DNA from: Imtechella halotolerans
GTDB taxonomy: Bacteria; Bacteroidota; Bacteroidia; Flavobacteriales; Flavobacteriaceae
NCBI RefSeq assembly: GCF_028743515.2
Contig: NZ_CP117969.2
Span: forward strand, 1,423,001-1,487,000
Length of the DNA: 64,000 nucleotides
Direction of reading: 5' to 3'
Numbering within the stretch: position 1 is the stretch's first letter; the number at the start of each line of letters is the position of its first letter. Shown piece after piece: positions 37,482 through 38,570 of the stretch. The translations under genes and the position numbers were made by a program. Under the pieces are notes generated by a model. That model made no database searches, was not told where the DNA came from, and was given only the letters and a program-made list of their open reading frames with translations.

Positions 37482-37865
37482 CTACAAAGAACCTAAAACA
37501 TGTTTAAGATCTGAGATTTGATTTTCCCATAGCATTTTAGCTTCATCAACCTCGTCCTCTTCTGTAAAATCAGTTATAATAAGAGAAACGTCTTTGGTTA
37601 TTTCATCAACTACAATTCGCATTTCGAAAAATGTATCATCTTCGGCTTCTATCCAGCGAAATTTCACCAATTCATCTCCCTTTTTACGTAACAGCTTGGC
37701 TTGTTCTTCAGCATCATCCCATATGAATGTATATACCTCTCCACGAGAATTGACATTATCAGCAAACCATTCTGAAAGACCTGAAGGTGTTGAAATATAT
37801 TGATATAGCAATTGAGGGGAAGATTGGAATGTAAATTCCATTTCGTATTTTACTTTATTGTGCAT
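37482..37865 (-). CDS. START-like domain protein (AHSA1/SRPBCC)
   Basis: A 127-residue helix-grip protein of the START-like family known from Bacteroidota: FTFQSSPQLLYQYISTPSGL, GLSEWFADNVN, and a long acidic C-terminal helix. ATG 37865 is taken; the TTG at 37889 adds eight non-typical residues. Function unknown. Confidence 0.85.
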   Translation of the reverse strand: MHNKVKYEMEFTFQSSPQLLYQYISTPSGLSEWFADNVNSRGEVYTFIWDDAEEQAKLLRKKGDELVKFRWIEAEDDTFFEMRIVVDEITKDVSLIITDFTEEDEVDEAKMLWENQISDLKHVLGSL

Positions 37866-37950
37866 AGCTTGTTTATTTCTGTTGAACAATATAGGACTTA
37901 ATTAATAGCAAAGAAAGAAAAGAATTAAAAATATTTTTTTTGCCATAAGG

Positions 37951-37981
37951 TTTGCGGTATATAAATTTAGTTCTATATTTG
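37951..37981 (+). promoter_or_regulatory. Promoter of tRNA-Met
   Basis: TTTG (37951-37954), exactly 19 bases, then TATATTTG (37974-37981) form a perfect Bacteroidota promoter 27 bases before the tRNA. Confidence 0.75.
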
Positions 37982-38008
37982 CAGCCGCAATCAGGAATTG
38001 CGAGTCTT

Positions 38009-38082
38009 GGCGAGGTAGCTCAGTCGGTTAGAGCGCAGGATTCATAACCCTGAGGTCACGGGTTCAACTCCCGTCTTCGCTA
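38009..38082 (+). tRNA. tRNA-Met (anticodon CAT), elongator type
   Basis: A 74-base cloverleaf. The acceptor stem GGCGAGG pairs with CTTCGCT (two G-U pairs), the D stem is GCTC/GAGC and the T stem ACGGG/CCCGT. The anticodon CAT is at 38043-38045. The G1-U72 pair argues against the initiator; tRNA-Ile with a modified CAT is a less likely alternative. An A31-C39 mismatch ends the anticodon stem. The CCA end is not encoded. Confidence 0.93.
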
Positions 38083-38083
38083 C

Positions 38084-38113
38084 AAAACCCTTGTTTTTTG
38101 ACAAGGGTTTTTT
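38084..38113 (+). terminator. Terminator of tRNA-Met
   Basis: AAAACCCTTGT (38084-38094) pairs with ACAAGGGTTTT (38101-38111), followed by more T. It sits directly after the tRNA 3' end. Confidence 0.85.
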
Positions 38114-38264
38114 CTTTTAAAGATAGCAAATACATTAGCTGTTTTTAAGTGAATTTTTAATAGTATCACTAGCATCTGCATTGTATTAAAGAGATAATCG
38201 TACTTCCCTGAAATTCAACACTAGTTCTCATAAATTAATCACTTTAATCGCTTAAACTAGTTTT

Positions 38265-38295
38265 TTTGAAGTTTTCCTTTTTATATCTATCTTTG
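38265..38295 (+). promoter_or_regulatory. Promoter of the candidate small RNA
   Basis: TTTG (38265-38268), 19 bases, then TATCTTTG (38288-38295). This is the same geometry as the tRNA promoter 300 bases upstream. Confidence 0.6.
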
Positions 38296-38299
38296 GTTA

Positions 38300-38382
38300 T
38301 TAGAAAACACGTTTGATATTCTTAGCGGTGTAGATTTGGCTTTCATTTAAGTCCCTCCCGTCTGTTGAACGTGTTTTTTTTA
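38300..38382 (+). ncRNA. Candidate small structured RNA, about 80 nt
   Basis: The unit begins a few bases after a consensus promoter. AAAACACGTT at 38304-38313 pairs perfectly over ten positions with AACGTGTTTT at 38368-38377, and a T-rich run follows. The 54-base interior can form GGCTT with AAGTC, and AGAT with GTCT. It contains no ORF. Terminal pairing plus a U-tract is what an independent small RNA would show. The Flavo-1 motif and other Bacteroidota RNAs are comparison candidates; I cannot match it to one by eye. Confidence 0.45.
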
Positions 38383-38528
38383 TTTTTATACCTTCATACT
38401 ATTAGCATTGTAATTAAAAACCAAAGTCCATTGTCTTATAAACACAAGACATCGATATTAATCATCTTTTTGTATTAATTACACTTCAATTTCCTGATGA
38501 AAAGCTATTAAAATCAGCAGATTAATCT

Positions 38529-38536
38529 TAACTTTG
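38529..38536 (+). promoter_or_regulatory. Possible -7 box of the Mla-type operon
   Basis: TAACTTTG fits TAnnTTTG and lies 34 bases before the permease ATG. No TTTG at the -33 position was found. Confidence 0.35.
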
Positions 38537-38570
38537 AGAAGCACAACCAACTGCCAAAGGCGCTCATCCT

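Follow-up and report, generated by a model that had tools for sequence, protein, structure and literature searches.

A candidate orphan small RNA with a closing helix between tRNA-Met and an mla-type operon in Imtechella halotolerans

The closest described counterparts of the locus considered here are the small RNAs of Flavobacterium psychrophilum, which were found by transcriptomics and have a median length of 176 bp; 45 of them are independent and non-antisense, and 18 of these (40%) have strong predicted structure (PMC9723704). In the same genome, sigma-A promoters with TAnnTTTG, the flavobacterial sigma-A -7 element, which is located at -12 to -5, are the norm, and one small RNA of the Rfp series, Rfp18, is conserved in the genus and has a deletion phenotype (PMC9723704). 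Two Rfam families also offer themselves for comparison, namely Flavo-1 (RF01705), a predicted short RNA motif of 76 positions from Flavobacteriaceae, and 6S-Flavo (RF01685), in which a long closing helix surrounds a central unpaired region.

Within the 64,000-nucleotide stretch of Imtechella halotolerans DNA analysed here (hereafter, the window), we describe a unit that, if transcribed as predicted, resembles the Rfp series in being a short, stand-alone, non-coding transcript with a sigma-A TAnnTTTG promoter. Unlike the Rfp RNAs, which were seen by transcriptomics, the unit is a prediction from sequence, and no homologue of it was found in the genomes searched. With about even confidence, we regard it as an orphan, independently transcribed RNA of about 80 nt in which the closing helix doubles as the terminator, and which is probably a lineage-specific base-pairing sRNA. 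Transcription, the termination point and regulatory function are what we infer from the features given below: independent transcription appears likely, a regulatory function falls a little short of an even chance, and the identity of the unit as an RNA and its restriction to one lineage are firmer than its mode of action.

38265..38295, + strand: the unit's sigma-A-type promoter, made up of TTTG (-33 element), 19-nt spacer and TATCTTTG (-7 element), an exact pattern match
38299..38382, + strand: predicted transcript of about 80 nt, the putative start placed from the position of TAnnTTTG and the putative end from the U-tract
38304..38313, + strand: 5' arm of the closing helix, AAAACACGTT, complementary at 10/10 positions to 38368-38377; the predicted fold extends the arm to 38302-38318
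38319..38362, + strand: internal region, weakly structured with one small hairpin by base-pair probabilities, a candidate pairing surface
38368..38377, + strand: 3' arm of the closing helix, AACGTGTTTT, leading into the terminator U-tract (complementarity, stem scan)
38374..38388, + strand: U-rich tail, TTTTTTTTATTTTTA, as read in the sequence

With respect to the promoter, TTTG occupies 38265-38268 and TATCTTTG occupies 38288-38295, with 19 bases between them, and the promoter of the neighbouring tRNA-Met gene (37951-37981) reads TTTG-N19-TATATTTG, which has the same 31-base layout. Given the location of TAnnTTTG at -12 to -5, the unit is expected to start at about 38299-38303. The promoter pattern by itself is not rare (5 found versus 3 expected in the 64-kb window); TAnnTTTG with an upstream TTTG is what marks an independent flavobacterial sRNA as having its own sigma-A promoter, and the unit carries both elements.

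The two arms at 38304-38313 and 38368-38377 are 100% complementary and lie 54 nt apart, and once the unit is folded the helix comprises 17 pairs, G-U included. The predicted RNA (approximately 38299-38382) folds with -21.9 kcal/mol (z -4.04), a value matched by none of 200 shuffled sequences; across foldings the z-score of the unit ranges from -3.3 to -4.0, and the opposite strand gives a far weaker fold (z -1.9). The unit combines a significant fold with a stem and U-tract of the kind that signals termination, the efficiency of which is uncertain given the long loop, 54 nt being long for an intrinsic terminator. The initial annotation had drawn attention both to these promoter coordinates, with a geometry shared with the neighbouring tRNA, and to pairing over ten positions followed by a T-rich tail; its coordinates are all correct, the layout at tRNA-Met proves to be identical, and all ten positions pair.

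A scan of both strands of the 64 kb for long-loop terminator stems (at least 10 perfect pairs, at least 3 G/C, a loop of 30-74 and a T-rich tail) returned a single occurrence, against 0.2 expected per strand from shuffles. When the intergenic interval was shuffled 5000 times, the promoter appeared in 1.3% of cases, the stem in 0.16% and both in the right order in 0 of 5000, although this test is post hoc, in that its criteria were set once the unit was known, and the figures are accordingly optimistic. Chance is a poor explanation for the combination of promoter and stem, which is well beyond chance. On the sense strand, there is no ORF of at least 20 codons inside the unit, in agreement with the lack of an ORF remarked on at the outset; the nearest sense ORF, of 37 codons, has its TTG start at 38365, i.e., at the 3' end of the unit.

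We propose that sigma-A RNA polymerase would start at about 38299-38303 from TTTG-N19-TATCTTTG and yield an RNA of about 80 nt, the ends of which would pair as a helix of approximately 17 bp that, together with the U-tract, would also stop transcription, leaving the middle (about 38319-38362), with its weak structure, exposed as a loop. By analogy with what is thought of flavobacterial sRNAs such as Rfp18, the RNA would most likely act in trans by base-pairing with mRNAs. Target prediction over the 56 gene starts of the window, including that of mlaE, detected no better-than-chance pairing with the loop: for mlaE, 0.665 of the shuffled loops pair equally well, and for the other gene starts, the best uncorrected fraction among six compared with shuffles is 0.035, which is not significant over 56 genes. 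The DNA that follows tRNA-Met is variable, and such an orphan sRNA may have arisen there or diverged there until no longer recognizable.

Searches for relatives were negative at every scale. A blastn search of 397 Flavobacteriaceae genomes recovered no relative of the unit, only short, chance-level matches, and a covariance model, which was built from a single sequence and can overlook diverged homologues when stricter filters are applied, as in large searches, found none in 299 Flavobacteriaceae genomes, in the 35 nearest genomes (picked mainly by GlyA and the START_2 protein) or in 395 order-level genomes; no congener of the window genome was among the genomes searched. The unit is present at none of 80 named mlaE loci, only one of which, that of Croceivirga lutea, has tRNA-Met adjoining mlaE, and that one lacks the unit; phages, plasmids and viral contigs yielded nothing relevant to it. 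With no homologue among them, the searched genomes supply neither covariation in the helix nor a sign of purifying selection. The candidate matches that did surface were rejected: DNA matches in two relatives (L002 and L003), apparently inside protein genes, cover only the AT-rich promoter stretch; most of the covariance-model hits in relatives are ordinary terminators of about 34-41 nt; and the longer ones (L173-L176; E 1.6-2.3) are at chance level by score and in some cases overlap coding sequence, the one in L176 being antisense to the beginning of a gene apparently for ribosomal protein L35. As for the likeness of the loop to an anti-rpmI sequence, the loop 19-mer, itself aside, has only one site in its own genome, with 3 mismatches.

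The absence of a homologue from every genome searched fits the main rival of our reading, namely that the unit is transcribed but functionless, a chance promoter and terminator-like stem in fast-evolving DNA by a tRNA gene, under no selection. The DNA 3' of tRNA-Met is indeed variable across the family, and promoter-like strings are common in the AT-rich window; however, the failure of promoter and stem to occur together in any of 5000 shuffles and the strong fold z-score weigh against this explanation, which we consider unlikely. A bolder version of the sRNA reading, in which the unit is a structured RNA not described before and confined to a single flavobacterial genus, with an end-to-end helix that closes and terminates the RNA and a centre of about 45 nt that is a trans-acting regulator, seems to us distinctly improbable. 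The unit is plausibly an ordinary lineage-specific sRNA, not a new RNA family or class. If transcribed, it would be one more orphan sRNA in a phylum where small RNAs have received little study; moreover, the signature of promoter plus closing helix, being legible without any relatives, can point to candidate sRNA genes in cases where comparative genomics lacks material.

The neighborhood of the unit also speaks to its independence.

38084..38111, + strand: intrinsic terminator of the upstream tRNA-Met gene, from a terminator scan, which parts the unit from tRNA transcription
38529..38536, + strand: -7 box TAACTTTG, assigned to the mlaE-mlaF-mlaD-type operon that follows and distinct from the unit; its position with respect to mlaE matches that of the box in orthologues

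Given that tRNA-Met has its own terminator upstream and that the operon, the proteins of which match MlaE, ABC_tran and MlaD (Pfam), has its own -7 box downstream, the unit most likely stands alone, bracketed by other transcription units and not part of them. Lying on the mlaE strand, about 190 nt upstream of that gene, and having a stem with a U-tract that could attenuate, the unit might alternatively be the leader or attenuator of the operon, with a start at 38299, a conditional stop at the 38377 stem and otherwise transcription on into mlaE (38571). On indirect evidence we deem this very unlikely, since mlaE keeps a -7 box of its own (38529-38536), placed as in the orthologues, and the unit is absent from every orthologous mlaE locus examined, including that of Croceivirga lutea, where only about 150 bp separate tRNA-Met from mlaE.

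The register of this box emerged from a comparison of mlaE orthologues (L005-L021, L083-L106 and L134, with 38488-38542 as the window counterpart). A palindrome, TGAY-N4-RTCA, lies upstream of mlaE in 36 of 49 orthologous loci (1.4 expected from mononucleotide shuffles), and in 28 pairs of palindrome and TAnnTTT(A/G) box the start-to-start distance is exactly 35 nt. This pattern suggests that the palindrome is a Crp/Fnr-type activator site that replaces the -33 element and is conserved across Flavobacteriaceae for this mla-type operon. In the window genome the -7 box is kept and the palindrome lost, with only a TGAT half-site left, at 38495. Separately, between the unit and mlaE (38425-38460) there is an inverted repeat, TGTCTT-N8-AAGACA, with a fold z-score of -2.3, which is possibly a protein-binding site.

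Three further explanations fare worse still. It is highly improbable that the opposite strand of the locus encodes a small protein. An ORF of 19 codons, MKAKSTPLRISNVFSNNQR, runs there from an ATG at 38346 down to 38287 and is directly preceded by a purine-rich, Shine-Dalgarno-like run, but this ORF has no relatives, the fold of that strand is weak (z -1.9), and Shine-Dalgarno sequences are naturally absent from Bacteroidota mRNAs (PMC6847099). The run itself, GGGAGGGA, before the minus-strand ORF at 38287-38346, is unusual in a phylum that does without Shine-Dalgarno sequences and is probably a chance occurrence.

A mobile-element remnant or MITE, with the 10-bp arms as the terminal inverted repeats of a 74-bp element, would account for a short element with perfect inverted ends beside a tRNA gene, and tRNA genes are common integration sites. 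Against this, the sequence occurs as a single copy in the genome, the other model matches being ordinary terminators of about 34 nt, its flanks show no target-site duplication, and the tRNA 3' end is not repeated within the window, so that we find a mobile origin barely credible.

The size and closed-hairpin shape of the unit recall 6S-like RNAs, yet it is most improbable that it is a diverged version of a known housekeeping RNA (6S, Flavo-1, SRP RNA or similar), inasmuch as an Rfam scan detected no family inside the unit, whether the threshold was the gathering score or E up to 5, and the 6S-Flavo RNA of this genome is located elsewhere. Specifically, the true 6S-Flavo maps to G000:C1:1688058-1688165 with 99.8 bits, and this family (gathering score 85 bits) gives no match in the unit, despite the shared architecture of a long closing helix; likewise, the unit fails the covariance model of Flavo-1 (gathering score 42 bits) at E up to 5. 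Over the whole genome Flavo-1 gave no match, in a search whose own controls gave none either. For want of a match, every Rfam family, Flavo-1 and 6S-Flavo among them, was rejected as the identity of the unit. Of what the initial annotation had proposed, an independently transcribed RNA of about 80 nt is the reading that the promoter, the fold, the tail, the lack of an ORF and the separate mla promoter support best, and the possible link to a recorded motif such as Flavo-1 has to be given up.

Just before the unit promoter, at 38217-38264, lies a weaker long-loop hairpin, with 10-nt arms that are 90% complementary and are followed by a T-run; its fold z-score is -1.7 and no promoter is seen upstream of it. 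A weak 6S-Flavo match (38213-38274; 23.4 bits, E 0.6) overlaps this hairpin.

On the other side of tRNA-Met, the gene order is stable: the START_2-domain gene and the divergent tRNA-Met gene (37482-38083 in the window) adjoin in 29/29 family members inspected (L044-L072), and the pair stays while the DNA 3' of tRNA-Met differs from genus to genus. In two of these loci, L062 and L072, a similar integrase-like coding region was noticed by eye 3' of tRNA-Met.
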